Shown here piece after piece: positions 16,201 through 56,048 of a DNA stretch of 64,000 nt; positions within the stretch are counted from its first letter, which is position 1, and every line of letters starts with the position of its first letter. A model generated the notes under the pieces. The model ran no database searches, had not been told where the DNA came from, and saw only the letters and a program-made list of their open reading frames with translations. This DNA comes from Austropuccinia psidii (lineage: Eukaryota; Basidiomycota; Pucciniomycetes; Pucciniales; Sphaerophragmiaceae). A program made the position numbers and the translations under genes. Location of the stretch: assembly GCA_023105745.1 (NCBI GenBank), contig JALGQZ010000004.1:36708937-36772936 (forward strand), in the 5' to 3' direction.

Positions 16201-17232
16201 TGATGCATTTGTGTGTCTACTTAAACCTCTAAATTATAGAAATGGGTACTTGGAGATTCATGATAATGAGCTCTACGACATATGGAAGGAGTTATCACAT
16301 GTATATCAATTGATATACAGAATTAATTATATGAGTGCTTCAATACACTCAAAGAAAAAGGTCTGAAGGTGTTCAAAAAGCATTATAAATAATTTCAGGA
16401 CAATATTTCTATCATTTCTTTTCCATTTAATAATTCTTCTCACAAAGTTTCGGTTTCCATGAAACACTAATTGCAAGATATAACCTTGATGACACATGTA
16501 CTTTCTCAAATTCAGAACTAATTTAAGGAAAATTCTTACTTGATGATAGCCAAGATAGAATGACATTGAATCCAGTTCTACCCTTTTGTAAATAAATTAA
16601 AAGGTAAGTCCTACTTGAGTCTAGTGAAATTCAAGTTTTAATTACTAATATTTCTATTTTCCCAGGTGTAATCCCTACAAAAGCTCTGGACTATTGGCTT
16701 GTAATTCCCGATACTCATCAATTTATTCCCTTGAAGATGTTTTAAATGACTATTTTAAATATTTCTTCTCATTTAGCTGATGTTTAAGGTCTATTTTATA
16801 TCATTTAATGAAATACAAAAAAGAATTTGAAGAGATTTTTCACACCACTCTCAAAATTATCACTCAGGTTAAGGTTCATTTGAAGAAAAATGAACCTCCA
16901 ATGAATCAAAGAAAATCTAAATTTACAAAACACAACCACCAAAAAATTATTTTATGAAATGTGTAACTATAATATTTTGCTTCACCACTTGAGCTCATTG
17001 ACTTTGAAGATTTATTTTTTAGAAATGTGGACATGGGTCTCATTTCCCATCAAGATGCATTCATGGACTAATTTTGAATTTTTCCTTATGGGAGAAATCC
17101 AATAAAAAATTATCTTCTCAACATTCCAAATTGACAAAATTAGAGGTGATTACTGAGCCACAAATGGCTTTATGGGGTCCTCAAATTGTGGAAGTATGAC
17201 CTTGAGTAATGTATTTTTGTTTTTGATACACC
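13265..17232. other. AT-rich region, no recognisable gene
   Basis: No domain is recognised. The open frame 14971-15246 (+, 91 residues) is less AT-biased than its surroundings and contains ELNKDHASDLWKARCTYF. It might be a scrap of a coding region, but I cannot name it. Two perfect short hairpins lie at 14655-14671 and 14748-14765. The rest shows only AT-rich sequence. Confidence 0.55.
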
Positions 17233-17237
17233 TTTTA

Positions 17238-19134
17238 TGTGAGCCTTGAGGTATATTTTACATACCCAAATAGGCCAAAATTATCTTAAAAATAAATTGT
17301 GAACTATGCATAACCCATAAGTCATGTGTGTATTCAAAATTCAGCTTTTTTGATTTCAGAAAAGATGAATAACTTTTTATTGAGTGAGTAAATCCATGGA
17401 TTAAAGGCCATATTTGGATCCTACACAAAAGTTTACCTAGGGTAGCTCCATAGAGTGAATAAGCTCAAATAAACTCTTTGAGGTGGTAATATGGAAAATA
17501 ATTCAATACCACGTATAAGATCCATGAAATTTTTTGTTTTTCTCAATTTCACACCAAAATAATGGGAATGTGAGAAATCCAATGTTACATATACACTAAG
17601 AATAGTGTTATTAATGTTTTGAGCACTTAATATTATGGTATTCTTACATACACTTTTGGTACACCCATAGTGGATATCTCACTTGAAGCCTGAATTTCTA
17701 TTTTGATATAAAAAATAGTCAAGGGGGACAAAAGACATCAAAGAGAGCCAGGGTACCCAACTTCTGAGGCCTCTGAGGTGTGGAAAGCTCCAAAGCTTGG
17801 ATCCATGGCTGATCTTGGCCCAATTAGTAAACTAAAACCATTTTGGGAACTTGGTTACCAAGTCAAAACTTCATTATATCATAAGGAAATAGCAAATAAG
17901 CTGCTATTTTGACATGCCAAGGAGGTAAAGAGCAACTTAGACTCCTGTAACCATGTTAATTCTCAATGAATTTACATGGATAAGCCCCAAAAGAGTAATT
18001 AAAACCCTTTTTGGACTAGTATCCATTGATTTACCTCATAGCAACCAGCCATATACTGCTATTTGCAGTTTTATGTAGAAATGAGGTAAAAACTTCAAAA
18101 ATTCATTAAAAATACAATTCTTAATTAATATTCCTGAAACTTTCAGCACCAATTTATAACTGTATAGTTCATATAAAGACGGAAAATAGTTATACTTTTA
18201 TAAGTAAAGTTAAAAGTTTTACATACAGTCAATTTTTCATGATTCCACATGAAATACTGAATCTTTAAAAATGCACAGAAAATACACTCTGCAATAAAAT
18301 TGCCAATAGCATTGATAACTTTGAGAAATAAATGATTATTTTGGAATAAAGGAAGATTTAAAGTTGTTACTCCTTTTATTATTAACCATAAATGGGTTGG
18401 TAGTCATGTGAAAGCACCGATTAAGTAATTATGATAATCTTACATGACAACAGATGATTCAATCAATAATCCAAAAAGGTTTATTGTTCTCTCACTCACT
18501 GGTTTTTCCGTTTGCTCCATGGCACGCCTCTGGGAGCTGTTTTAGACTTAAAAGAGGCCTCCTCTTGCTGTTTTTTCCAAAAACATCACATTATTCTATT
18601 ATACATTTATCACCAACAAGTAAGTATTAGTTAAAAACCTTTTATTAAGTGGTTTATTCTTTCAGAATAAATCAGAAAGACTTTAAATAATAGAAATCAA
18701 CTATATATTGTTGTAATACTGTTATATATCCATTTTCAATTCTTTAAATCCACAATTATCTGTCAAATTTCTCTACTTTTATCTTTGATAAGTTCTTTGG
18801 AGTATTAGTGAGTGATTTATCTTAATTCATAAAGTGATTCTCTAGTAATTGTTTCTTTCAAGAATTATATTTATAATTATTTTTACATAAGATAATTATA
18901 TATTAAAATAATTTTATTATTTTAATAAAGAAGTCTTATTATTAAATACTTCTTGTAATTGATTCTAGTAGACAATTACTGCTGACTGTTATAGTCACTA
19001 GTAGTGTATAAAAAGTAAAAGAGATAATTATTTAATTGGGGTTATAATGATTTTATTATTATATTTCATAGGAACAATCATAGTACTGTTGATTAGAGGT
19101 ACTATTATCAGCAATTTCATAGATACATCTTACA
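17238..19134 (+). repeat. Solo Ty3/gypsy LTR (1.9 kb family), TTTTA duplication
   Basis: It begins TGTGAGCCTTGAGGTATA and ends CATCTTACA. It aligns along its whole length with the LTRs at 25791, 42892, 45649 (-), 54123 (-) and 61612. Flanks are TTTTA at 17233-17237 and 19135-19139, so this is an independent insertion reduced to one LTR. The splice-donor-like sequence CCAACAAGTAAGTATTAG of the family is kept (GT at 18620-18621). Confidence 0.93.
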
Positions 19135-19139
19135 TTTTA

Positions 19140-20379
19140 GTGTATGATACGCTATAGTATACTTTTTATTTGAAATAAAAGGCAAGAAATATCCTTTGGA
19201 GATAATAGAACTCAATTTACTGCACCATCCATTTTAATGCCAAAAGTATGAGTGAAACTTCTTCCACTGGCATTCAATTTGAGAAAATGGTGCACCTGCA
19301 ATCCTATATATAGAGACTTGTACATATTAAAAAAACCCTTCATCAATCTGAAGAGACTTTGGGAAATATGTTTGAAAGCTCCAAAATGTGTTTTATACTT
19401 CCCAGGCTGTCTGTAAAGAGGTGAAAATCTCATGTTTCAGCCCAAAATACTTGATATCCTTAGAAAATCTGTTTAAGTACTGCAGTGTATGCAAATTTCT
19501 TCAAGAAAATGAATAATAAATATAAACTCAGCACAGAAAGAAAAGAAATGTGATACCTATTTCTGGGTGGAAAAGATCTTCTCCAATACAAAATAAGAAT
19601 ACAATCTTAACTTTTTAACATCAAATGTTATTCATACACTCTTAAAGGCCTATATAAAACATTTTATGGATTTATGACTTGAATAATTTCAAGAAACATG
19701 GTTTTTATAAGTGTAAATATATTTATTCCATGATGAAGCTTTATTTACTATTTTTAAGGCCTATTCATGGTATTTTGACCTTCAATACTATCTTTGGAAC
19801 TTCTAATGGTAAATTTACAGCTGTAGTATCTGTAATTCTGAATAAACTAAAGAAATAAATCTTTAAATATCAGCTTGTAAGTATAATACTTGATTGAGGG
19901 CCTTCAGCTTATTTTTTTAAAAGTTTTCATATCCAGACACTTATTTAAAATCTTTAAAATTGAGTTTTTTACTTTTTAACTTGATAAAAGAAGGAATTTG
20001 AAGTTTTCTTAATACATTTTTTAACAAAAGAAGAAAATAGCTGCATTATTTTAGGGTAATGCCTTGAAAGTTTACTTCAGAAAGTCACTTTATCCTTACA
20101 AATAAGATTTTCTACTTCCATATATTTCTTCCCCTAAATTCTTTTTTTGAAAGGAATTAAAAGAAATTCTCTCAAGAGCACAGCTTATACTGTTAGCATT
20201 GAACTAATTAAGAGGTTTTTAGACAAATAAAATCCTTTTGAGTGCCTTAAAATCATGACTTCATTAACAAAGAGCCAAATTTCAAGCTTTAAATGAGAAA
20301 ATTTTCTATTTATACTTTTTGAGATCTTTAGCTGTGAGAGTATCTGAAAGCCCCCAAGAAAATTTGTATAAAATCATTG
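19140..20379. other. AT-rich region with one imperfect hairpin
   Basis: No gene is recognised. At about 19219-19297 the words TGCACCAT and AATGCCA recur inverted as TGGCATT and ATGGTGCA, an imperfect foldback of roughly 80 bp. The frame 19212-19433 on - runs through this foldback and is not credible as a gene. Confidence 0.5.
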
Positions 20380-23375
20380 TCAGCCTGTGACTCAAAACCA
20401 GAGCACAAGCATGACAGCCAAATACCATACACCAATGGTAGAGCCAAGATACCACCAAAACATGGAAATAAGACAAACCGGCTAAAAAATTATCAAAGTA
20501 AAGAGGAAACTCACCTCTTTCCAAATATACAAGTCCCATCATCATAGGACAAGGAATAACATAGTTATTCCTGCTCAAAGTTGTTGCTAAGCATAAACCT
20601 TATTTTTCACCTCTCATCTGAAATCCAGAGGAAGAGGCTTAACCCCATCAAATGGGTATTCAAAATGAAGCTCTAAGTCAGGGATATCCAAAGGTACTAA
20701 CTAAATTGAGCTAGAATCAGAATTACTGAAGTTATGACCAAAATAAGTTCAAATAAGGGGGAATGAAATATTCACCTCTCATCTAACTTCTACAGTTCTT
20801 ATGTGAGATACCTAAAGTTCTGTCTTTTTGGAAAAAGCACAATCAGGGCTATCTTATGGTGCCATTCATTTCCCCATATCTCACCTAGAACAAAGGTTAT
20901 AGTGCAAACAAGTTCCATACAGATTTTAAGCAAATCATACATATGTACAAGAAATCTTGTACATGGAATAGCTTTTCCATATTAAATGAGGTACCATTGT
21001 GTAGAGCACATTCAGCACTACACAATGAGCCAACTTTGAGCTTGATATCTCAAAAACTGAAAAAGCTATGGAAGTTTTAAGGTCAAAATCCCACAGTTAG
21101 ACCAATACAGCCTTAGTATGGGATATTCTCCCATAACTCTGATTATGAGGTGTCACAAAGACAAAGAAGCCTGTTTATACTTCAATACCTCACTGTTTGG
21201 TCAATAACGGGGTCTTGTACAGCATTCTAGGCATCATACATGTCAGAAGAGGACTATGTGGTCCCCAGATGAAAATTTTCACCCTGTATTGGGGAAAACT
21301 TCCCAGATGTGGTTTCAAAGCCACATCTGAGCCCAATAAAGGCTATAAAGGCCTTGTGATAGCCACAAGCCAGTCCTTAGAAGTGAAAAATATTCACTTC
21401 ATCTATGTGAAAAGGTCTAGTAGCCTTTTTCACCCAATTGTGGAATAAAAAGGGACCTTTTCTCCACCAGAAAAGGTTTCCTAATACTGCTCTTGAATTC
21501 CTATGCAGTAAAACTGTCAAAAAAAGTCATACTCTTGGAAAATAACCAGGTTATACTCTAAATTTTAGTATTGTAGTTCTTATTATAGTAACCCAACTGG
21601 TATAACTACCCCCAGGGCTTTCAACAGTGCTCACCACCACTATTTTATAATATTAAAGCCCTTATTAATCCATTCTATACTCTTATTATCTATAATCCAA
21701 CTACTTTTCAATTAATTTTACCATGTCAAAGTCATAGTCAAAGTTTTAAATAGCCTTATTACACCTTCATCATAGACTCAGCCTGACAATCATATTCATA
21801 ATCTGGTAACTCAAGATAGGCACTGTTTTATTGTAAAATTTCTCAAGACCCCTTGGAAATCATGAAAATAAATACAGAAGCTATAGCCCATAGGCTTTAA
21901 GAATGTTTTGAAAAGTCATGCAGTTGGCTCATTCCCTGTAAATTATTTTTTTCAGGCTGAGTCTCTAAAAAAGCTATGAAATAGTATTTTATAATTCAAT
22001 TATGACTGTGAAATGGTAATTTATAATAAAAAATAGTTTTGGATAGTAGTAATAAGGGCTTAACTATGGATTATAGTGGTGGTGAGCGCTTCTGAAAGCC
22101 CAGGATTTACTGGTTATCAGTTGATTAACTATAACAAGAAATACAATACTATAATGAGAGTATAACCTGATTATTTTCCAAGAGTACAGATGTTTTTGAC
22201 AATTTAACTATGTAGGAATATAAGAGAAGGATGGGGATTCCTCTTTTGGGCAGAGAAAGGACCCTTTTCATCCTGAAAATGGGTGAAAGGTCCTCTAGAC
22301 CTGTTCATGTAGGAAGAGTGAAGATTTCTCACTCCAAGGCCTTGATTGTGGTTCTTACCATGCCTTTATAGCCTTTATTGGACTCAGATGTGGTTTTTAA
22401 ATCACATCTGGGCAGTTTTCACCAATACAGGGTAAAAAGTTTCATTTGGGGACCACACACCCCTCTTCTGAGCTGTATGACATGTAGAACTCTGTACAGA
22501 ACATGTATGGGGACCGCATATTGACCAAAATATGAGGTATTGAAGGCTAAACAGTCTCCTTTGTAGATTTGACACCTCATATTCAAGGATATGGGAAAGG
22601 ATTGCACAGTAAAGGGGCTTTGGCCCAAATGTGGGATTTTAACCTTAAAACTGCAATAACTTTGTTAGTTTTGAAGATATTTAGCTCAAATTTTGTTCAT
22701 TGTGTATCCCTGGATGGTGTCTACACAATAGAACCTCACTTTCTCATAAATAACATTTAGTATGGAAAATATATAAAGTTCTTACTTTCCATTATTCAGA
22801 TATGAATATTTTTCTCAAATTATGTAGGGATCTTGTTTGCTCCATAACTTTCTTTCTAAATGATTTATTGAGAAATGGATGGAACCATCAAATATCCCTG
22901 ATTGTGCTCTTTACAAAATGACCCAACTTTCATTATCTCAAATTAAAACTGTAGAGGTTATATGAGAGGTGAATATTATATTCACCCTTATTTGGCTTTA
23001 ATTTGGCCATAACTTCTGTTATTTTGATTCTAGCTTGGTTTGGTTAGTACCATTGGATAGTCCTGACTGAGAGCTTCAATCTGAAAACTCATTTTATGGG
23101 GTTCAGCATCTTTATTTAGTCTTTAGATGATAGGTGATACTTAAGTTTTATGCACAGAAGCTGATTTGAGCCTTAATAGCTTTTCTATCATTTTTACTAT
23201 GATTATGGGACTTGTGTAGTGGGAAAAAGGTGGCTTTACGCATTTTTTTTATACCTTTGAATCTTTTTTTGGCTCAGCTCCATGTTTTGGTGGTATTTTA
23301 CCCTACCATTGGTTTATGGTATTTTGGCTGTCATGCTTGTGGTCTTGCTTTTCTTAACAGGATGACAATATTAGT
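20380..23375. repeat. Large degenerate inverted repeat (two ~1.4 kb arms)
   Basis: The left arm (about 20380-21788) reappears as its reverse complement in the right arm (about 21953-23375) around a spacer of about 165 bp. Landmarks in matching order are 20411-20466 with 23280-23342, 20733-20800 with 22945-23012, 20815-20880 with 22870-22925, 21197-21340 with 22375-22545, 21527-21620 with 22075-22195, and the innermost AGACTCAGCCTG (21775) with CAGGCTGAGTCT (21955). The arms are diverged with many small gaps. No protein domain is recognised. Peptides such as RRG(L/V)CGPQMK(I/L)FTLYW appear in both arms simply because the DNA is repeated. It could be a foldback transposon, two inverted copies of one unit, or a hairpin-RNA locus. 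Confidence 0.85.
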
Positions 23376-25785
23376 CATAGTTATACTGGAAACCTGATCT
23401 TACATCTATTGAGGAATTCAAGCTATATCCAAAGACCTATTAAAAATGGTTTTGTGGTATTAAATAGCTTTTTATATCAGCTTCAAGCCCATAGAAGGGG
23501 GAAAAGCTCAATATATTAATAGATAAATGGTAATATTAATAGTTATTAACATTAAAGAAACCCTCACAAAAAAGAAGAAAAATAAGATTATCAATATATT
23601 GAGGTAAAGCAAGACCTTAGAGCTCAATAAATGGGGAAAGGAGGAAATTGAAAAATTAAATAAGTGGGAAATATATTATCTAGTAGGTAACTGGAAAATA
23701 AGAATTAAATATGAGCATTGAAGCTTGAAATAGTATACCTTGATTAAAGTAAAGTCACAGAAAAAAGGGAATTAACTATAAAAATAGGGGGGTAACTTAA
23801 TGGTCAATCTACACTAAATCCATTAAAGAGAAAACCTCAGCTGGTAAAAATTATTTCTGTAAAAAGGAAGTTTTAAAAATGAAATGATGTAAGCCTTTAT
23901 CAATACCAAGAAATCTCATAAGAAGTTAGAATGAAATTCAAAAATAAATGAGATTCATGCATGGAAATTTTCAAGAGGCCCAAACCTGCACCTAATTATT
24001 AGTTCATATTACATAATAATACAAGAAATAGCAAAATCCTTTTTAATAATAACCTAATTTTTGAGATGTTTCCAGAGGCCTCTCACCCTAATTTTAACAT
24101 CATAATCACCATTAGAAAAGTGGATTCACCTGAAAGAAGGTCTTGGATTTGGAAAAATTAGATTGTAAAAAACGTAGAATGAGCTCAGATCATTCCTCTG
24201 AAATAGGTTTTACCCCTGATTTTGATTTTTTTTGATATTCCAGGTTTTCCAAGCCACTAGGATATTTATTAAGATCTTAACTTTTTGGATGGTATTTACT
24301 ACCTGTATATTATACTGTATGGAATATCTTCAGAAATCTTAATTAATGAGAAAGCCTTTCAGTTCTATTTGCATTTTCACAACACTATGAAACTATCATA
24401 CACTGTAAATATATTATATTAGCGATATATTCTGACTTTGAAGACTCCTCTTTGTTCTTTGAGTTTCTTAGTGAGGAAAATACAGCTTTCAAGATAAATT
24501 AATTATCTATTTTAATTTAATTGTGACTAATTATTAATCCATCATAATATTGATTCTCATTTTTCCTCAGAAGGTGGCTTATAAAGATTTATATCCTCAA
24601 TGAAATCCTAATATCAAGGAGAATGATCATTGAATATCTATCTTCTTTTTACAGTCAGTCTTCTGATAGATTTGAAATAAATAAAATTAAAGACTTTGAA
24701 TTTTTTGCTTCAATAAAAGTATTCAAAATAGAAAAAATATACAAAAAATCTATTTTCCTCTTCATTGATTAGAATTTCCTTGATATTGGCATCATTTCAA
24801 TCATTATTAAAGATTGTCATTCATATTATCATGAATTAAGTTCATCAATTTATTTATTAGTAAAGCTCTTATTTAATTTTTGGGAAGTAAAAATTCCTTA
24901 AATTTGGTTGTTTTATTTTGTTTATTTTTTGAGAAGTAGAATTCTCTGTAAATTACATCCTGCTACTGGAAAAAATAATTTTTATGAGATTTACAGCTGC
25001 AGTATACAAAGATACCACCACTTTAAAAAATGTCACTCATTTTTTACAGTCGCCAACATTACAGGGACCACCACTGCAAAATTGTCAATGATCATCAACA
25101 ATTTTACAGTAGAAATATAAAAAAACTAAAGCCATACAGATTGAAAAATGAAAAAATTTAGAAAATGAATGAATAATAATCTCAAAAAACAAAACTCTCT
25201 TCATAAAACAATTGATAACAAAATAAAAAGGTGTTTTTAAATTAGCAGAAAGAAGTTTTCTTCTACAGATATTCTTTTAATAGGAATCAAAAAATAATTT
25301 CAATTATGATAATAGATAAAATAAGGCTCAGTTCTTATAACTTTTTCTATCATCCCATTTTTGAAGTAATTATATTGTTTGATTTAAAATCTTTGGAGAA
25401 AAAACCCTTTTTAATGAATTTTTTTAACGTTTTTGGTTTCTCTATTCCATTTTGGAAATCAATAGGGAGAATATCCAATTTACAGAGGGAAAATGGGGGA
25501 AGAAATGATAGCAAATATATTAGTTGAAAATAATACTCATCATCCAAATTTGAAATGTAAATCTCTTGTTAGATCTTAAGAAATGAGGTCCAAGTCACTC
25601 TATTTCTGAGAATTATCCACGTGTATTGCTTACGTGATTGAGTCAAAAAAAACAAAAACTGTGTTTCACTTTAATCCTATTCCAATGGGGTCAAGATTTG
25701 GATTAGGAGTATTATTTTAATTTTGTAAGATCACAAGCAATTTTATGCTTTTCAAAAATGTATTTTTTTTCAAAATTTGATCATA
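23376..25785. other. AT-rich region, no recognisable gene
   Basis: Nothing is recognised by homology. A near-perfect foldback lies at 25073-25110 (ACTGCAAAATTGT against ACAATTTTACAGT, 12 bp loop). The open frames are short and AT-driven. Confidence 0.55.
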
Positions 25786-25790
25786 TTTTC

Positions 25791-27694
25791 TGTGAGCCTT
25801 GAGGTATATTTTATATACCCAAATAGGTCACAATTATCTTAAAGACAAATTCTGAACTATGCATAACCCATAAGTCATGCATATATTCAAAATTCATCAT
25901 TTTTGATTTCAGAAAAGATGAATAACTTCTTATTGAGTAAGTAAATCCATGGATTCAAGGCCAGATTTGGATTCTAAACAAAAACTCACCTAGGGTAGCT
26001 CCATAGAGTGAATAAGCTCAAATCAACTCTTTGAGGTGGTAATATGGAAAATACTTCAATACCACATAAAAGATCCGTGAAAATATTTGTTTTTCTCCAT
26101 TTCAAGCCAAAATAATTGGAATGTGAGAAATCCCATGTTACATATACACTAACAATAGTGTTATGCATGTTTTGGGAACTTAATATTATGGTATTCTTAC
26201 ATGCACTTTTGGTACACCCATAGTGGATATCTCACTTGAAGCTTAAATTTCTATTTTTACATGAAAAATAGGCAAGGGGGACAAAAGGCATCAAAGAGAG
26301 CCAGGGTGCCCAACTTCTGAGGCCTCTGAGGCATGGACAGCTCCAAAGCTTGGATCCATGGCTGACCTTGGCCTAATTGGTAAACTAAAACCTTTTGGGA
26401 ACCTGGTTACCATGTTACAACTACAGTAAATCATAAGAAAATAGCAAATAACCTGCTATTTTGACGTGCCAAGGAGGTAAAAAGCTACTTAAACTCCTGT
26501 AACCATGTCAATTGTTAATGACTTTCCATGGATAAACCCCAAAAGAGTAATTAAGACCCTTTTTGGACTAGTATCTATTGTTTTACCTCATAGAAACCAG
26601 TCATAGACTGATATTTGCAATTCTACATAGAAATGAGGTGAAAACTTCAAAAATTCATAAAAAATACAGTTCTTAATTAATCTTTCTGAAACTTTCAGGA
26701 GAAATTGAGAACCCTAAAATTCATATAAAGACAACAAATAATTATACTTCTATATGTAAAATTCAAAGTTTTACTTACAGTCCATTTTTGAGGATTCCAC
26801 GTGAAACACAGAATCTTTTAAAATTTACAGAAAATACATTCTGTGATGAAATTTCCAATAACATTGATAACTTTGAGAAATAATTGATTATTTTGGAATA
26901 TAAGAAGATTTACAGATGTTACTCCTCTTATTCGTAACCATAAATGGGTTGGTAGTCACATAGAAACCTCAATTACGTCATTATGACAATCTTATGTGAC
27001 AACAGATGATGCAATCAATAATCCAAAAAGGTTAATTGTTTTCTCACTGGTTTTTCAGTTTTCTCCATTGCAGGCCTCTGTGAGCTGTCTTAGACTTAAA
27101 AGAGGCCTCCTCTTGCTGTTTTTTCCAGATCATCATCACATTATTCATTTATATCATTGTTACCAACAAGTAAGTATTAGTCAAAACTTTTCTTAAGTGT
27201 TTTATTCTTTCAGAATAAATCAGAAAGACGTGAAATCATAGAAATCAACTATATATTGTTGTAATATTGCTATAAAATCATTTTGATCCATTAAATCCAC
27301 AATTCTATGTCAAATCTCTCTACTTTTATCTTTAATAAGTTCTTTGGAGTATTATAGAGTGATTTATCTTTAAATCTTAAAGTTTTTCTCTAAAAATAGT
27401 TTTCTTCAAAAGTTATCTTTATAATTATTCTTGCAAAAGATAATTATATATTAAATTAATTTTATTATTTTAATAAAAGAAGTTTTTATTATTAAATTCT
27501 TCTTGTAATTGATTCTTGTAGACAATTACTTCTCACTGTTATAATAACTAGTAGTGTATAACACGTGAAAGAAATAATTTTTTATTTATTTAATTGTGGT
27601 TATAATAATTCTTTATTATTATATTTCATAAGAACAGTCATAGGACTGTTGATTAATAGTAATATTATCAACAGTTTCATAGACACATCTTACA
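25791..27694 (+). repeat. Solo Ty3/gypsy LTR (1.9 kb family), TTTTC duplication
   Basis: It begins TGTGAGCCTTGAGGTATA and ends CATCTTACA. Flanks are TTTTC at 25786-25790 and 27695-27699. It belongs to the same family as 17238-19134, but each copy has its own duplication, so the two are not the ends of one element. The donor-like CCAACAAGTAAGTATTAG is kept (GT at 27170-27171). Confidence 0.93.
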
Positions 27695-27699
27695 TTTTC

Positions 27700-45648: not shown

Positions 45649-47574
45649 TGTAAGATGTGACTATGAAACTGATGATAATATTACTATTAATCAACAGTAC
45701 TATGTCTGTTCTTATGAAATATAATAATAAAAAAATTATTATAACCACAATTAAATAATTATAAAATTATTTCTTTCACATGTTATACACTACTAGTGAT
45801 TATAACAGTGAGCAGTAATTATCTACAAGAATCAATTACAAGAAGAATTTAATAATAAAAACTTCTTTTATTAAAATAATAAAATTATTTTAATATATAA
45901 TTATCTGTTACAAGAATAATTATAAAGATAATTCTTGAAGAAAACTATTACTAGAGAAAAACTTTAAGAATTTAAAGATAAATGACTCACTAATACTCCA
46001 AAGAGCTTATTGATAGATAAAAGTAGAGAAATTTGACGTGGAATTGTGGATTTAAGAGATCAAAAGGATTTATAACAGTATTACAACAATATATAGTTGG
46101 ATTCTATGATTTCACGTCTTTCTGGTTGATTCTGAAAGATTTAAAACACTTAAGAATAGCTGGTAACTAATACTTACTTGTTGGTAATAATGATTTAATA
46201 AATGGATAAGATGATGATACGGAAAAAAACAGCAAGAAGAGGCTTCTTTTAAGTCAACAACAGCTCACAGAGGCGTGCCATGGAGCAAACTGAAAAACCA
46301 GTGAGTGAGAAAACAATAAACCTTTTTGGATTAATGATTGCATCATCTGTTGTCACGTAAGATTATCATAATTACTTAATTGATGCTTTTACGTGACTAC
46401 CAACCCCAATATGGTTAAGAATAAAAAGAGTAACATCTGTAAATCTTCTTTTATTCCAAAATAATCATTGATTTCTCAAAGTTATCAATGTTATTGCCAA
46501 ATTCATCACAGGTTTTAATTACTGTGAATTTTTGAAGATTCAGTGTTTCACGTAGAATGGTCAAAAATGGACTATAAGTAAAACTTTAACTTTTACTAGT
46601 AAAACTGTAATTCTTTTTGTATGTACCATAGATAATACAGTTCTCTATTGGTCCTGAAAGCTTCATAAAGATTAATTAAGAATTGTATTTTTAATGAATT
46701 TTTGAAGTTTTTACCTCATTTCTACGTAGAATTGCAAATATCAGTGTTTCACTGGTTGCTATGAGGTAAATCAATGGATACAAGTCCAAAAAGGGTTTTA
46801 ATTACTCTTTTGGGGTTTATCCATGGAAAGTCATTAAGAATTGACGTGGTTACAGGAGTCCAAGTAGCTCTTTACCTCCTTGGCACGTCAAAATAGCAGG
46901 TTATTTGCTATTTTCTTAAGATTACAGTAGGTGTAACTTGGTAACCAAGTTCCCAAAGAGTTTTAGTTTACCAATTGGGCCAAGATGAGCCATTGATCCA
47001 TGCTCTGGAGCTATCCATGCCTCTGAGGCGTCAGAAGTTGGGTACCCTGGCTCTCTTTGATGTCTTTTGTCCCCCTTGCTTATTTTTCATGTCAAAATAG
47101 AAATTTAAGCTTAAAGTGAGATATCCACTATGGGTGTACCAAACGTCCATGTAAGAATACCATGATATTAAGTGCTCAAAACATGCATAACACTATTCTT
47201 AGTGTATATGTAACATGGGATTTCTCACTTTCCCATTATTTTGGCTTAAAATCAAGAAAAACAAAAATTTTCATGGATCCTTTATGTGGTATTAATGATG
47301 TGGTATTGAAGTATTTTCCATTTTACCACCTCAAATACTTAAATTGAGCTTATTCACTCTATGGGGCTACCCTAGGTGAATTTTTGTGTAGAATCCAAAT
47401 CTGGTCTTAAATCCATGGATTTACTTACTCAATAAAAAGTTATTCATCTTTTCTGAAATTGAAAATGATGAATTTTGGATATATGCATGACTTATGAGTT
47501 ATGCATAATTCAAAATTTCTTTTTAAGATAATCTTGGCCTATTTGGGTATGTAAAATATACCTCAAGGCTCACA
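45649..47574 (-). repeat. 3' LTR of the inner Ty3/gypsy element
   Basis: On + it begins TGTAAGATGTGACTATG and ends AGGCTCACA. It is collinear without net gaps with 54123-56048. It carries several bases that look like CpG decay relative to the other LTR (45780, 47150, 47274). Confidence 0.94.
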
Positions 47575-47950: not shown

Positions 47951-49588
47951 TTAATCAGCCGGTTTATAAGGCTTTATCAAGCTGACTGGAAAGGTGGGGT
48001 GTTTATTTTCCAATTCACCACTCAATTCCACTTGAACTGCATTGGTTCCATGTAAAGCAACAATAACAAAAGGTCCTACATAAGAATCTTTAAGTTTCTT
48101 TGGGCCTTTGATATTATTAAAATTAAAGGTTGAAACTAAAACTAAGTCCCCTACTTTGAAGTCTGGTACTTTATGACTCTTTTCCCACTTCTGTTTTGCA
48201 TAATCAAAAGCATCATCCATACTTTGTTTTGCATGATGTTTCACTTTATCAAGCATTATCTTGAAGATGGAAGCTGTAGGATGAATGTCAATCAAGTCTT
48301 TCCTCAGTGTGTCTGCTGGGAGTCTTGGATTCCATCCTTTTTCTAACATAGCAGGAGTTTGTCCTGTGGAAGAATGGACTGATGTCTTGTATGCCAATTC
48401 TAGTGCAGGTATCAGGGTGCACCAGTCATGGGTAAAGCCATCTGAGTCTTTTAATTCTAATCCATAAGCACAAAATCTCCTGATCATGTCTTCTAAAGTT
48501 TGAATCATCCTCTCTGCTAGCCCATCTGTTTGAGGGTGATATGCTGTAGAGAATGATAACTTAGTCCCAAACAATCTATGAAGATTGGTCCAAAGTGCAG
48601 ATGTGAACTTGGGATCTCTGTCACTTATGATATTCTTAAAAAATCCTGTATGAGAAATAACTCTACTCCATAAAAGAAGAGCTGTATCCATAGCAGTGTC
48701 ATCTTTATGACATGGTAACAATATGGGAGTTTTGCTATATCTGTCTACAATGACTAAACAAGCATTATAACTTTTGTCACCACTTGGGGGAAGTGCTGTG
48801 ACCCAATCCATGTGGACAACTTCCCAAGGGGATTTTGGTTCTTGAATATGGATCATTAATCCAAATTTCTTGCCTGTGCTCCTGTTTGCTTTCTGGCATC
48901 TGTCACAGGTATGGCAATATTCAATGGTTTCTTTCCTCCAAGATGGCCACCATGCACAGTTCTTCACTTTTTCAAGTGTTCTGTCTTCTGACAGGTGTCC
49001 AGAGTAGATACTATCATGACATTCATGAAGAATGGTATTGATAAGTAATCTACTACACAGTGTCATCACACAAGAATGTTTTGTTCTATGGTATATAATA
49101 CCATCAAACAAGTGAAATCTTCCTTCAGAATAGGAATTTTTCCAAACTTCATCAAGTGCATTAACTAAAGATGTATCGTTGCAGTCTTTATCTAATAAAG
49201 AAGTCAAGATATGGCAATTCTTGTCTTGTTTATAAGATTCTCTGACCTCTTCAAAGAATTCAGTCCCAATATCAGTTATGTTAATTCCTTCAATTGGAAT
49301 CTGTGGTTCAGCTTCCAAAGGTACATAAGCTGGGTTATCAGGAGTGTTGGCTAAAGCCCATCTACTAAGTCCATCAGCATTCTTGTGAATGTTTCCTGCT
49401 TTATGAGCTATAGTCATGTTTCCTCTATATTCTTGAATGGCTATTTGCCATCTCAACATATGTCTGTTGGGAGTTTTCATGTTAAGAAGTGATTTCATGG
49501 CATTACAGTCAGTTATCACTTCAAAAACACTGCCATCAAGATAATAGTGTAGTTTCTCAAGTGCCCATACCAAACATAAGCACTCCAT
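47951..49588 (-). CDS. pol: Inner element: RNase H end and integrase
   Basis: This open frame of 545 residues continues the polyprotein of the upstream frame after a single TGA. Residues 1-75 complete RNase H (E2 in MECLCLVW, D27 in VITDCN, D72 in NADGLSR). The integrase zinc-binding module is at about 188-228 (H...H then CHTC). The catalytic triad is complete: D261 in VHMDWV, D323 in IISDRDPKF and E359 in GLAERM, with 35 residues between the second and third, as in active integrases. The C-terminal part (about 470-545) has VGDLVLVST and the strand-rich integrase tail. The ATG at 49588 is an internal methionine, not a natural start. The frame ends at a TAA where the outer copy has AAA (K), so the chromodomain-like tail is cut off. 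Confidence 0.92.
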
Positions 49589-49603: not shown

Positions 49604-52600
49604 TCAGGCTTCTGTTGGTTTGATTTTTCTTGAGATATAACAAACTGGTCCTTCTGTAGGTTTGTCATCAATAATTTGGACTTGATGTAGGGCTGCCCCT
49701 AATCCATCTCCACATGCATCAATGTACAACTTAAAAGGAATATTCCAGTCAGGCATGAGGAGTAAAGGTGCTTCTGTAAGGGCTTTCCTTATCTTCTCAT
49801 AAGCTTTAATTCTCTCTTGTGTCATCTCAAATACAGTCTGTTGATCACAGATTCTATAAAGTGACTTGGCTAGAATTGCAAAGTCTTTCAGGTGTTGCCT
49901 ATAGTAACTGGAAAACCCAAGAAAAGACATCATTTCTTTTTTATTCTGGGGTATTGGTTTAAGTAACACTGCTGTTACTTTGTTTTTGTCAATACCAAAG
50001 CTTAAACCAGAAACAATATGTCCTAATGCTTTGAGTTCTTCAAAACCAAAATTGCATTTCTTAAGTGAAATTTTTATGTTCACTTCTGCAACTTTATGAA
50101 GTACTCTTGCAAGTCTTTCAAGGTGCAAAGACCATGAATCAGAACATATGATAATATCATCAATATAAATGATAAGCCATCCTTCAGACAATTCTGTAGG
50201 AAAGTTGGTGTTCATCATCCTTTGATAATGGGATGGAGCATTTTTAATGCCAAATGGCATTCTAAGATACTCAAAAATACCACAGTGAGTGATAATTCTA
50301 AGTAATTTCTTAGCTTTAGGCGTCAAACCATTTTGATGGAAGCCTTTCAATGCATCCATTGATGTTATATACTTGGCTTTAGACAATTGAGTCAAGGTTT
50401 CTTGAATTCTAGGGATTGGATACCTATCTGGAACTGTGTAGGTATTCAATGCTCTGAAGTCTCCAACCATTCTTGACTTATCATTATGCCATGAAATAAT
50501 AACAGGTGTTGTCACTTCAACTTCCTCATTATGGCCTACTTTCCTTAGCACACCAAGTTGGATCAACTCTTGGATATGTTTTTCCAAGGCTTCTCTAGCT
50601 CTGGGACTGGCTGGATAAGCTGGTCTTCTAAGTACTGGAGGATATGGTCTGTCAATATCAAGAGTAATATCAACTTCATGTCCTCTTATAGCGCCTAATG
50701 GTTCATTATCAGAGGCAAATGCATTTTTATATGTGTATAACACATTAATAAGTTCATTCCTCATCTTTGGTGACAATGATTGATTAATTTGTGCTTCAAC
50801 AAGTTGATTAGTCACAAATTCATCTTTGTAAGTATCCTTGACAGAAGATACTACAGATATCTGTTTTGGCATATTGGAGCAAGCAAATTTTTGTCTCTTG
50901 TTATCTCCAATTGTGAAATATCTGTCCTTATGGTTATTTATATCAATACCATAAATATTTAAGTAATCATTTCCAAGAATGATGTGCTGATATTGGCAAT
51001 TATCCATTACTACAATCTCAGTTTTCATTCTTACACTTCCTGCTGGATGTGGGAATACAATATTAGTGTCCAATATGCCCAGGGGGTACATATTGTTACT
51101 GGCACTACTGAATTGTACACCTTCTATTGGTAATAGATGGTTTTTCCATTCAGGAAGTATAATTTGGAGATAATCTTTGCCCACACAAGTGCAAAATGCC
51201 CCTGTATCCAAATTTACTTTAGCTTCAATATCACTCATCAGAACTGATGTGATACAGGATGCCCCAGCAGTATAACCCTTTCCTCTAGCAGGTTTTGTTT
51301 TACACATTCTGGCATCTTGGATATTGATCAGGTTGCAGAAATCCTCACTGTACTGTGGCAAGTGGGTATGGACTTCTGTGACCTCAAAGAAAGCTGAAAT
51401 GTTCTCAATGGGATAGTCCTCCACTGGTGTATCTTCAGAGACTGCAGAATCATGATCAGACTCCTCTTTCTCTTCAGTACACTGAATTACTTCAATGACT
51501 TGAACTTCATTGATCTTTGTCTTCTTAGGACAAGTGTTGGCTAAATGTGAAGTACTTCCACATTTATGACACTTCAAGACAGGTCTTTCTGCTCTCCTTT
51601 CCTCTCTAGGAATCTTTGAGACTATTTTGGACTCTATTGGGTTTTTAATCCAAGTCTTACCAATTCTTGTTCTGGTAATGATATCTTCCATAGAATTAAT
51701 GTAGTCCTCTGTTGAACAAGGTTCCACACATCTGCTTTTGATAGCATGTTCCAGTTCTCCTCCACACTTTCTTAATATTTTCATATTAATCATAGTGTCA
51801 GACATATCTGGGTGTAAAGCAGATAATCTGTCTTTTTGTTTGAAGAACCAAGTAAGTGGTTTGTCTTTTTCTGAGTTAAAAATGGCACTTTCAAAAGCAT
51901 TTTCCATTTTAAACCTCCAAGAATTATTGGCCCATTTGGTAATCACTTCAGATTTCCACCAAGACCAGTCATGTTTACCATGATCAATCCTCATTTTGTA
52001 ATACCATTTCTTTGCAGTCCTGGTAAATAAACAGTGTAATTTTCCCACTATGATTTCATCAGGTATATTGAAGTCTTCTTGAAACATATCAATAGTCCTG
52101 ATGAATTCAATATGTTTGTATTCTCCTTCACCAGAGAATGTTGGCCATTCTTCTATTTTGGGAATATCCCTTGTAGAGTAGGAATTTTCTCCTAAGAATG
52201 GGGTGAGACTTTCTTTAACAGAAAGTTTCTCTTCAGTTAAAGGTGTAGAATGTCTTGGCATATGTGGTTCATGATTCTTATGAATTTGTTCCACACTTGC
52301 AATTATTTCATTCTTCAACTTCTGCCTTTCACTGTCACTTTTTGCTAAGTGTATGGCAAATTGATTGGTATTCTCAACTATTTTTAAGACTTGGTCTTGC
52401 AAAATTGTAAGTTGATCATTCACCTTAAAAATGGAAAGATCTTCCATTTCATCATGCTGAATTTGGCACATATTTTCAATTCTTTTGCAAGAATTGGTAA
52501 TTGAGTAAAGTTTGGCATTTGTCACTTGGTGTAATTCAAGGTATTTCTTGTCATTTTTCTTTAATTCAAGTATATCTGATGTAAGTTTAGTTAACTTTCC

Positions 52601-53422
52601 ATCAAGTTTTCCAATTTCTACATTAATACTAGTCTGTACACCAATTATTTCCGTGGAAAGTTTCTGTTCATCCTTTCCTGCTCTTTGGCTGTGAATTCCA
52701 TCAGAGTTCTGGCCATATTGAACACACTGTCCACTGCTGAAGGTTCCAATTTGGGGATCCTGTACCCTTGTGGGTAAGGTCTGTGCCAATTGGCTTTTCC
52801 TTTGCCCTTTCCTTGATGGTTCTTGGGACCCTTCTGTTTCCTCTGAGGTCCCTTGGGCTTGCCTTTGGACACTTCTGGAGCTGGTTTGGAGCTGGTAGAC
52901 GCCACTGGTGCCTCTGTCTCCAAAGCTGGAGTCATTTCCAACTCTTTCTTCTGGTCTATGAATAAAAGACTTTGGTTCTTCAACCAATTCTTTATCTTTT
53001 TTACCTTGTCTTTGCAAGAAAGGGGGCTCCATCCTCCTAAGAGGTCTATGGTCTTCTCCTGACCCAGAAAGCTCTTGATGTGTAAGTAGGAGTTCATGGC
53101 CCCCTGCCAAAGGCTTGGGCAGATTTCCCACTCCTCTTCCTTGGCTGCTCTGAACCAGTTTTTGTACTTGCATTAATATATTTCTATTGCTGCCACCTGA
53201 AAGTGGTTCAGCCCTGGAAATATTACCATAAATCAGTTCAGGCTCTGAATTCACGTCAAAATCTGTTGGTACAGACCTTGGGGAATGGGGGGCAACTCTG
53301 GCATCCTCCAAATGTGTCTTTCTTGTGGAAGACTTGGCACTTCTGGATTTGGTCTTGCCTCTTCCTTGTCCACATCCATCTGGTTGGACTGAATAGTTGC
53401 TTCCATTTCTGGTATGCACCAT
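49604..53422 (-). CDS. gag-pol: Inner element: Gag-protease-RT-RNase H polyprotein
   Basis: The frame has 1272 residues from MVHTRNGSN. Residues 1-260 are rich in R, S, Q, G and E and overlap a second reading frame. About 262-400 is helical and coiled-coil-like. A capsid-like region at about 420-560 contains [20 protein letters not shown] and [10 protein letters not shown]. The zinc knuckle [14 protein letters not shown] (C-x2-C-x4-H-x4-C) is at about 617-630. The aspartic protease motif LDTGAF is near 737. Reverse transcriptase spans about 920-1130, with DFRALN, the catalytic YIDD near 1085 and SDSWSLHLE. RNase H starts near 1220 (YIDACGDG). A TGA at 49601-49603, after PTEA, separates this frame from the integrase frame. 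Relatives have arginine there. All visible catalytic residues of RT and protease are present. The particle-forming and copying functions may therefore be intact. Confidence 0.93.
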
Positions 53423-54652
53423 TTTTACGTCAATTTAAGGATAAAGAGTAAAAATAAAGATAAAAAACACACCTTTTGGTGGTAATTTATTCTTTTCAGA
53501 ATTAAAAAAGGTGCCTCTTTTAGCAATTTGCACCTCAATACTTTCCTCAGATTCTGCTTCTGAAGATTCTGGGCTAGTAATATATCTTTTACTGAGTCTG
53601 TTGCCAGCTGCACAGTATTTGATTAAAGACACTAGAAAAATTATAAAAGAGAAAAAATTATTTTTTTATACTATTTAAAATATTTTTTAAAGATTTTTTA
53701 TAAGTTTTATATTTTTTAATATTAAAGAAATTATTCTTTTTAAAGAAAAAAAAATTGAAATTTAAGATTTTGAATGAAAATTAATTCAGAGTAACTCAAA
53801 GAATAATTTTATAAGTTTCTGGATGTGAAAAAGCCACATGTAAAACAGTATAAGATTAAACCAAATTCCTCAATGAAAAAGATTTCCAAGACAATTTCAA
53901 AAATAAGAATTATTTTAACTTTAAAATGAAAAGAAAAAAATATTAAATTAATATATTTTAGAGCTTAAAAATATATTAATTAAGGGTACAAGGTTCAAAA
54001 AACACGGCCAGGCCCCCAAATGTAAGATGTGGTAGGTATGGTGGTTTTTTAGAACACAAAAATGAAGTCTAGAATATGATTAAAGCCAAGTCTATGGATA
54101 AAATCATGGCCAGGCTCCCAAATGTAAGATGTGACTATGAAACTGATGATAATATTACTATTAATCAACAGTACTATGTCTGTTCTTATGAAATATAATA
54201 ATAAAAAAATTATTATAACCACAATTAAATAATTATAAAATTATTTCTTTCACGTGTTATACACTACTAGTGATTATAACAGTGAGCAGTAATTGTCTAC
54301 AAGAATCAATTACAAGAAGAATTTAATAATAAAAACTTCTTTTATTAAAATAATAAAATTATTTTAATATATAATTATCTGTTACAAGAATAATTATAAA
54401 GATAATTCTTGAAGAAAACTATTACTACAGAAAAACTTTAAGAATTTAAAGATAAATGACTCACTAATACTCCAAAGAACTTATTGATAGATAAAAGTAG
54501 AGAAATTTGACGTGGAATTGTGGATTTAAGAGATCAAAAGGATTTATAACAGTATTACAACAATATATAGTTGGATTCTATGATTTCACGTCTTTCTGGT
54601 TGATTCTGAAAGATTTAAAACACTTAAGAATAGCTGGTAACTAATACTTACT
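52645..54652 (-). CDS. Candidate spliced alternate-frame ORF of the Ty3/gypsy family
   Basis: Proposed joined exons on -: the LTR exon ending at 54652, then 53631-53473, 53408-53277 and 53213-52645. All three introns are GT-AG (donors GTAAGT, GTGTGT, GTCTGT; acceptors CTAG, CCAG, CCAG) and the frame is kept throughout. The first join makes ATG from the LTR exon's last A plus TG. Product segments are [17 protein letters not shown]..., [20 protein letters not shown]..., [13 protein letters not shown]... [20 protein letters not shown]..., then [20 protein letters not shown]... and a Lys/Gly-rich basic tail. The frame would give about 286 residues, but a TAA at 53173-53175 (CAA in the outer copy) truncates this copy. 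It lies +1 to gag over residues 1-260. I do not know a function. A basic nucleic-acid-binding or particle protein is a guess. Splicing itself is unproven. Confidence 0.55.
53214..53276 (-). other. Predicted intron 3 (63 nt)
   Basis: It has GTCTGT at the 5' end and ATTTCCAG at the 3' end, with CTGAAC and ACTGAT as possible branch sites. The alternate-frame stops in this stretch (two TGA) fall inside it. The outer counterpart 45516-45578 is also 63 nt and ends TTAAG. Confidence 0.5.
53409..53472 (-). other. Predicted intron 2 (64 nt), contains the gag ATG
   Basis: It has GTGTGT at the 5' end and GCATACCAG at the 3' end, with TTAAATTGACG as a possible branch region. The gag start codon (53420-53422) lies inside, so splicing would switch off gag-pol translation. 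The outer counterpart is 45320-45384 (65 nt). Confidence 0.5.
53632..54651 (-). other. Predicted intron 1 (LTR donor to leader acceptor)
   Basis: The donor ACAA|GTAAGT lies in the 5' LTR and the acceptor TTTTTCTAG|TGTC in the leader, 1020 nt apart. The outer copy has the matching interval 44272-45175. It removes the primer-binding region and AT-rich leader and creates an ATG at the junction. The interval also includes the small duplication at 54006-54132. Confidence 0.5.
54006..54132 (-). repeat. Duplicated LTR-end/primer-site junction
   Basis: A 25 bp word (ACATCTTACATTTGGGGGCC continued by TGGCC on the minus strand) occurs at 54006-54030 and again, with one change, at 54108-54132, where it is the true LTR/primer-site junction. 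The 77 bp between them is not seen elsewhere in the window. The outer element has only one junction (44790-44814). Confidence 0.8.
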
Positions 54653-56048
54653 TGTTGGTAATAATGATTTAATAAATTGATAAGATGATGATACGGAAAA
54701 AAACAGCAAGAAGAGGCTTCTTTTAAGTCAACAACAGCTCACAGAGGCGTGCCATGGAGCAAACTGAAAAACCAGTGAGTGAGAAAACAATAAACCTTTT
54801 TGGATTAATGATTGCATCATCTGTTGTCACGTAAGATTATCATAATTACTTAATTGATGCTTTTACGTGACTACCAACCCCAATATGGTTAAGAATAAAA
54901 GGAGTAACATCTGTAAATCTTCTTTTATTCCAAAATAATCATTGATTTCTCAAAGGTATCAATGTTATTGCCAAATTCATCACAGGTTTTAATTACTGTG
55001 AATTTTTGAAGATTCAGTGTTTCACGTAGAATGGTCAAAAATGGACTATAAGTAAAACTTTAAATTTTACTAGTAAAACTGTAATTCTTTTTGGTTGTAC
55101 CATAGATAATACAGTTCTCTATTGGTCCTGAAAGGTTCATAAAGATTCATTAAGAATTGTATTTTTAATGAAGTTTTGAAGTTTTTACCTCATTTCTACG
55201 TAGAATTGCAAATATCAGTGTTTCACTGGTTGCTATGAGGTAAATCAATGGATACAAGTCCAAAAAGGGTTTTAATTACTCTTTTGGGGTTTATCCATGG
55301 AAAGTCATTAAGAATTGACGTGGTTACAGGAGTCTAAGTAGCTCTTTACCTCCTTGGCACGTCAAAATAGCAGGTTATTTGCTATTTTCTTAAGATTACA
55401 GTAGGTGTAACTTGGTAACCAAGTTCCCAAAGAGTTTTAGTTTACCAATTGGGCCAAGATGAGCCATGGATCCATGCTCTGGAGCTATCCATGCCTCTGA
55501 GGCGTCAGAAGTTGGGTACCCTGGCTCTCTTTGATGTCTTTTGTCCCCCTTGCTTATTTTTCATGTCAAAATAGAAATTTAAGCTTAAAGTGAGATATCC
55601 ACTATGGGTGTACCAAAAGTCCACGTAAGAATACCATGATATTAAGTGCTCAAAACATGCATAACACTATTCTTAGTGTATATGTAACATGGGATTTCTC
55701 ACTTTCCCATTATTTTGGCTTAAAATCAAGAAAAACAAAAATTTTCACGGATCTTTTATGTGGTATTAATGATGTGGTATTGAAGTATTTTCCATTTTAC
55801 CACCTCAAATACTTAAATTGAGCTTATTCACTCTATGGGGCTACCCTAGGTGAATTTTTGTGTAGAATCCAAATCTGGTCTTAAATCCATGGATTTACTT
55901 ACACAATGAAAAGTTATTCATCTTTTCTGAAATTGAAAATGATTAATTTTGGATATATGCATGACTTATGAGTTATGCATAATTCAAAATTTCTTTTTAA
56001 GATAATTGTGGCCTATTTGGGTATGTAAAATATACCTCAAGGCTCACA
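54123..56048 (-). repeat. 5' LTR of the inner Ty3/gypsy element
   Basis: On + it begins TGTAAGATGTGACTATG and ends AGGCTCACA (1926 bp). It pairs with 45649-47574. The probable primer-binding site follows on the minus strand (54122 downward, TTTGGGAGCCTGGCC). The splice-donor-like CCAACAA/GTAAGTATTAG has its junction at 54652/54651. Confidence 0.94.

Follow-up and report, generated by a model that had tools for sequence, protein, structure and literature searches.

The element and its second frame

The window analysed here, 64,000 nucleotides (nt) of the rust fungus Austropuccinia psidii (contig JALGQZ010000004.1 of assembly GCA_023105745.1, positions 36,708,937 to 36,772,936), holds a minus-strand Ty3/gypsy retrotransposon whose gag gene appears to be overlapped, in the +1 frame, by a second and spliced gene. 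The element sits inside a plus-strand copy of the same family, the parts of which flank it. Its long terminal repeats (LTRs), its gag with a CCHC motif, and its reverse transcriptase (RT) and RNase H placed before integrase assign it to Ty3/gypsy (Metaviridae), the CCHC match in the gag frame being weak (E 0.028, below Pfam's cut-off). On the minus strand, the 5' LTR (54123-56048, TGTGAG...TTACA) and the 3' LTR (45649-47574), whose ends were read, are 98.75% identical over 1926 nt. Between them lie a gag-pol open frame of 1272 codons (49604-53422) with the weak CCHC match, RT and the start of RNase H, and a second pol open frame (47951-49588) with the end of RNase H, integrase and a Tf2-type SH3. 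The presumed primer-binding region (54122-54105) directly follows the LTR; a tRNA search of the 64-kb window and an Rfam search each returned 0 matches. We also observe that the LTR end and a primer-like motif are present twice, close together, at 54133-54032, and that the approximately 102 nt of this place are missing from several of the spliced-junction copies presented below.

The first-pass annotation of this DNA had proposed that three GT-AG introns join open blocks into a single frame, and all its components are found in the sequence. The joined blocks form one minus-strand frame, +1 to gag, of 286 codons ending at TAA 52647-52645, with a sole in-frame stop, TAA 53175-53173; in the plus-strand copy the corresponding sites (44272/45175, 45320/45384 and 45516/45578) are likewise GT-AG. 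The 3' part of exon 1 was read at 54652-54700, its 5' end—the transcription start—being placed conditionally from the start of an ATG desert below 54755. Intron 1 (53632-54651, 1020 nt) starts in the LTR and runs past its end, through the presumed primer-binding region. Exon 2 (53473-53631) is occupied by the alternate frame only; as exon 1 ends with A and exon 2 starts with TG, the first splice would create an ATG. Intron 2 (53409-53472, 64 nt) holds the gag ATG at 53422, so that full splicing would take this start codon out. Exon 3 (53277-53408) overlaps gag and has another alternate-frame ATG at 53406-53404. Intron 3 (53214-53276, 63 nt) lies inside gag, of which it represents 21 codons; its length is a multiple of three and gag remains open after its removal. 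Exon 4 (52645-53213) also overlaps gag and ends with the terminal TAA.

These splice sites are widely kept among the copies of the family. The A/GT...AG/TG borders of intron 1 are intact in 66 of 69 copies; for intron 2 the GT is found in 65/65 copies and the AG in 64/65, and for intron 3 in 63/64 and 64/64 respectively.

Selection on the alternate frame

Copies were drawn from the 1.015-Gb assembly (84 contigs) in two sets. Set 1 comprises 39 copies chosen by DNA similarity to 53173-53631 (40 places including the window, minus L043, whose match ended early); set 2 comprises 30 copies chosen with the database protein P0112 of A. psidii MF-1, a choice that favours copies with a good alternate frame in exons 3 and 4. 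Omegas were calculated on disjoint pairs, with an assumed transition weight of 2.5, and those of exon 4 in set 1 were measured from 53169 on. For the 19 pairs of set 1 that are 3-8% apart, the omega of exon 4 is 0.40 in the alternate frame, 1.29 in gag and 1.85 in the third frame; for the 12 pairs less than 3% apart the values are 0.71, 1.13 and 1.35. In the 335 nt past the alternate stop, the omegas of set 1 are 1.36 for the alternate phase, 0.52 for gag and 1.48 for the third frame. The protein-picked set gives an alternate-frame omega of 0.34 and 0.19 in two distance bins.

In an overlap, the constraint on one frame has to be separated from that on the other, and this was done by 400 shuffles in which the base change and its effect on gag were held fixed. 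In exon 4 of set 1, 88.5 differences are silent in the alternate frame versus 55.9 +- 4.3 expected, a value that 0/400 shuffles reach, and those making or removing an alternate-frame stop are depleted (4.0 versus 12.9 +- 2.3; 0/400 as low). The third frame behaves oppositely, with 44.5 silent differences versus 61.9 +- 4.0, and downstream of the alternate stop the alternate phase displays no excess (32.5 versus 37.9 +- 3.0). A chance open frame is rejected by the exon 4 omegas together with this gag-matched test. Thus the alternate frame of exon 4, when examined for neutral decay as the first-pass annotation had suggested, does not evolve neutrally: its omega is low, its stops are depleted and the signal is gone past its own stop.

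When, conversely, the alternate frame was held fixed, set 1 shows about as many gag-silent differences as expected (52.0 versus 48.9 +- 3.9; 88/400 reach) and a reduced number of gag stop changes (7.0 versus 11.5 +- 2.2; 9/400 as low). In the overlap gag therefore seems to be kept open with its residues little constrained, while the protein-picked set displays some gag constraint (silent 31.5 versus 23.9 +- 2.6; 2/400). Among the 39 copies, the alternate frame is open over exons 2-4 in 28, gag is open over the overlap in 28, and both are open in 19.

The regions were further compared in 64 copies, i.e. both sets minus five spliced copies (25/64 being protein-picked), using 31 pairs 3-20% apart. 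The omegas of the alternate frame and of gag are 0.49 and 1.03 in exon 3, 0.84 and 0.42 in intron 3, 0.22 and 1.57 in the first half of exon 4, 0.40 and 1.31 in its second half, and 1.06 and 0.55 downstream. The constrained frame hence switches at both borders of intron 3 and again at the alternate stop. Altogether, these comparisons support the view that, in exons 3 and 4, the alternate frame is under purifying selection. Exon 2, which is covered by neither gag nor the protein query, has in 69 copies (34 pairs) an omega of 0.40 for the alternate frame and of 1.29 and 4.65 for the other frames.

Genomic copies lacking introns

A trace of splicing was searched for in the genome itself with P0112 (exons 3-4), and 150 of 40709 first-look candidates were scored. 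In five copies the frame runs through without intron 3. The alignment shows introns 2 and 3 exactly missing from L009, L013 and L014; both are also missing from L011, with one extra base lost at the intron-2 junction, and L010 lacks intron 3 alone. Intron 1 is retained in all five. Their outer LTR ends TGTGAG/TTACA are intact and each has a perfect 5-bp target duplication (5/5), which argues that they integrated as elements. In a tree of 69 sequences these five copies are placed apart among unspliced ones, so that several independent events are likely, although part of the branches are poorly supported (values of 0.34 and 0.38 are among those printed).

Besides, 30-letter junction patterns were searched genome-wide with up to 3 mismatches, the reversed patterns serving as controls. 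The spliced intron-3 junction occurs at 12 places versus 5467 (2730 + 2737) for the unspliced one, with 0 for both reversed controls. The P0112 search had already yielded five of these 12. Introns 2 and 3 are both missing at 7/12 places (L081, L083, L084, L086, L089, L090 and L091), and intron 3 only at 5/12 (L082, which is L010, L085, L087, L088 and L092). The spliced-junction copies are 81 to 94% identical to the window, L090 and L092 being degraded (82 and 81%). As a side observation, gag would be 21 codons shorter in the copies from which only intron 3 is missing.

These copies support the real splicing of introns 2 and 3 in vivo and the re-integration of such RNAs; they indicate that partly spliced RNAs were packaged and integrated. 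The subgenomic spliced messenger proposed by the first-pass annotation is thereby supported as regards introns 2 and 3, whose removal is recorded in genomic copies. For intron 1, no genomic fossil was found and stops are not depleted in exon 2; its splicing is inferred, as is the accessory role.

The leader and the start of translation

The unspliced leader ahead of gag (53425-54690, minus strand) is poor in ATG: it contains 2, versus 15.8 +- 3.2 in 500 dinucleotide shuffles, none of which is as low, and the mean over 69 copies is 1.42. CAT, the reverse complement of ATG, is as frequent in the leader as expected (23 versus 22.9). In intron 1, ATG is the most depleted among the triplets tested, at 0.17 of expectation, followed by GAT at 0.43. 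Upstream of the leader, ATG is frequent down to 54755. This pattern suggests that ribosomes would scan the whole unspliced leader to the gag ATG, and that transcription would start between about 54755 and 54652.

The predicted protein and its relatives

The models of the predicted 286-residue protein are of low confidence (mean pLDDT 54.4 and 56.3); in them, helices span about residues 101-190 and 255-282, and the lysine-rich stretch that separates these is poorly modelled. The best match among sequences of the Protein Data Bank (PDB), isopropylmalate synthase (E 0.0057, profile positions 105-199), covers the lysine-rich stretch and was judged due to chance. No known regulator appears among the PDB sequence matches, nor among the fold matches of these low-confidence models.

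Database proteins matching the alternate frame are numerous: 1087 of 1109 candidates pass. The best 120 of these 1087 are all hypothetical proteins of A. psidii MF-1 (other species could be among the rest), named O181_... and 80-95% identical over the matched part. They belong to the same family as the rust protein, and their names give neither a function nor a link to retrotransposons. Among these 120, 17 are of 232 amino acids (aa), start in exon 3 and continue across intron 3. P0122 and P0123 span exons 2, 3 and 4, and could derive either from a spliced gene model or from an intron-less copy. P0020 and P0025 are among the printed models that fuse the start of gag to the alternate frame, which may simply reflect how gene finders behave with overlaps. 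When the N-terminus of gag served as the query, 3 of 1869 candidates were found, all of A. psidii. The first-pass annotation knew of no described protein of this kind; this has to be revised in that the family already stands in the database as MF-1 hypothetical proteins, and it holds for the literature, where our search, covering few subscription journals, found no spliced alternate-frame protein described for a fungal Ty3/gypsy element.

Discussion

Complex retroviruses are marked by spliced accessory genes; to our knowledge, few LTR retrotransposons have been described with them. We estimate at about 0.88 the probability that this Ty3/gypsy family has a genuine second gene, spliced, selected and coding for a protein in the +1 frame of gag; this figure excludes the function and the exact start. 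The gene is well supported for exons 3-4 and introns 2-3, and probable, on weaker grounds, for exon 2 and intron 1. With the intron-3 donor present at 5467 places, the family would provide an independent case of a spliced accessory gene, in which the overlapping frame is measurable by selection and the genome itself keeps a record of the splicing. Ty3 is moreover the largest repeat class of A. psidii (PMC12774611).

The unspliced RNA would present to ribosomes a scanned leader of about 1.27 kb, nearly free of ATG, and start gag-pol at 53422. In the spliced RNA, the LTR donor would be joined to exon 2, which would form the new ATG; the removal of intron 2 would eliminate the gag ATG from the RNA, and that of intron 3 the stops that block the alternate frame. 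The product would be a protein of 286 residues, with a lysine-rich stretch and a middle part predicted to be helical. Four parts of this scheme are presumed: that intron 1 is spliced out, which codon serves as the start, that the frame is translated, and what the protein does.

Several observations weigh against the gene so described. The window's own copy carries a stop in the alternate frame, the TAA at 53173-53175, which among the 39 DNA-picked copies is found in the window and in L044. In the 24 pairs of the 64 copies that are less than 3% apart, the pattern is weak: in exon 3 the omega is 0.81 for the alternate frame and 0.73 for gag, and in the two halves of exon 4 it is 0.62 and 0.62 for the alternate frame, 1.25 and 0.80 for gag; the corresponding values are 1.03 (alternate) and 0.38 (gag) in intron 3, and 1.42 and 0.69 downstream. 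In exon 2, the 19 pairs of set 1 give an alternate omega of just 0.67 (0.87 and 13.39 for the other frames, on 36 differences). Nor are differences that make or remove a stop rarer than expected there, observed/expected being 1.40 in the 69 copies and 1.21 in the DNA-picked ones. Exon 2 and the splice-made ATG are thus, with this mixed signal, less well supported than exons 3 and 4. The 11-mer at the intron-1 donor is unexceptionally conserved, 58 of 1079 windows being equal or better, so that donor conservation was dropped as a proof of intron 1. The spliced intron-1 junction, searched genome-wide as one 30-letter pattern with up to 3 mismatches, was found at 0 places; this fits the loss, with intron 1, of the LTR end and primer region, and would equally be expected if intron 1 was never spliced. 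In exon 4 the alternate frame finds no backing in codon usage: the scores are -0.081 there, 0.273 for the alternate frame of exon 2 and 0.108 for the gag overlap, those of the controls extending from 0.075 to 0.245 for held-out pol and from -0.117 to 0.224 for wrong-frame pol. Finally, the predicted protein has no match in Pfam, and no convincing one among PDB sequences or, with its low-confidence models, among PDB folds and viral folds. As to which frame is the older, the strength of selection points to the alternate frame and codon usage rather to gag.

Among known systems the closest is Cer1 of Caenorhabditis elegans, also a Gypsy/Ty3 LTR element. Its spliced RNA gives a second protein and its unspliced RNA Gag-Pol, and its full-length RNA has to skip good splice sites; by contrast its CERV protein is of about 60 kDa, with a role in RNA export shown experimentally, whereas a role for the rust protein is a guess (PMC10309623, PMC3315495). 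In HTLV-1 (deltaretroviruses), U5 is lost from the spliced RNA through a splice within R, Rex and Tax are read from the fully spliced RNA as overlapping regulatory frames, and Rex is predicted to be overprinted on Tax (PMC3434621, PMC3744397). HTLV-1 differs in being a human retrovirus and in having its overlap in pX, at the 3' end, and not in gag. BARE1 of barley is of the Ty1/copia type. It is an LTR element with a spliced subgenomic RNA too, in which splicing gives Gag alone (PMC3735527). The rust element does not fit this spliced-gag-RNA type (BARE, copia): the frame read after splicing is not that of gag, and it stops short of the CCHC match. Its likeness to Cer1 and HTLV-1 is one of arrangement.

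By this analogy, we tentatively propose that the protein regulates the element's own unspliced RNA—through export, stability or splicing—like CERV of Cer1 or Rex of HTLV-1; this is the function that we hold most likely, at rather less than even odds. The same reserve applies to the wider view that the family works like a complex retrovirus, with an unspliced RNA for gag-pol and packaging, a spliced RNA with a splice-made start for a dedicated overlapping regulator of the unspliced RNA, and one of the two, that protein or the N-terminal part of gag, overprinted on the other. If the protein does regulate unspliced RNA, the family would represent a separate solution to the export of an intron-containing genomic RNA.

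Other explanations retain the gene and change its product or its role. Its main product could be a protein of about 232 residues started at the exon 3 ATG (53406) on an RNA without intron 3, with or without intron 2, for which splicing of intron 1 is unneeded; if intron 2 were retained, ribosomes would get to this start by leaky scanning, passing over the gag ATG 16 nt before it. The 5/12 fossil places lacking intron 3 only, the 17/120 listed MF-1 proteins of 232 aa, the lack of intron-1 fossils and the undepleted stops of exon 2 all agree with it. It does not account for the silent changes favoured in the same frame through exon 2 in the larger set (omega 0.40 versus 1.29 and 4.65), for an exon 2 without its own start codon in the window copy, or for the A/GT...AG/TG borders kept in 66/69. 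We therefore consider a main product of this size somewhat doubtful, and both the 286- and 232-residue products may exist.

The 286-residue protein could also be structural, an alternative matrix- or nucleocapsid-like component made from spliced RNA and packaged with Gag. The lysine-rich stretch and the predicted helices would suit such a role, and in BARE and copia Gag comes from a spliced RNA; on the other hand, the low-confidence models match no capsid or matrix fold, and the weak CCHC match belongs to the gag frame. This seems to us unlikely.

That the alternate frame is untranslated, open by chance or composition, while splicing merely tunes gag by removing its ATG or 21 codons, agrees with an intron 3 that leaves gag open; it is made very improbable by a constraint that is detected with the gag effect held fixed, lies mainly within the exons of the alternate frame and is gone past its stop. 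That the missing introns are deletions produced by reverse-transcriptase jumping, which the few bases common to both borders of intron 3 would permit, can practically be dismissed and was rejected, since both gaps coincide with the GT-AG introns and recur on separate branches of the tree and in copies 81 to 94% identical to the window; moreover, the 1.4-kb alignment of the 39 DNA-picked copies (L043 left out) has no gap longer than 13 nt.

A related unit in the window

Another LTR pair of the same family, 87% alike, is present at 17222-19138 and 25776-27698, with an interior giving no gag-pol match in tblastn. The splice-donor word of the LTR, AACAAGTAAGTA, is still present in this unit, at 18615 and 27165, and the unit looks like a non-autonomous relative. 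Within it lies an inverted pair of about 1.3 kb, 75% alike, at 20372-21667 and 22050-23372.
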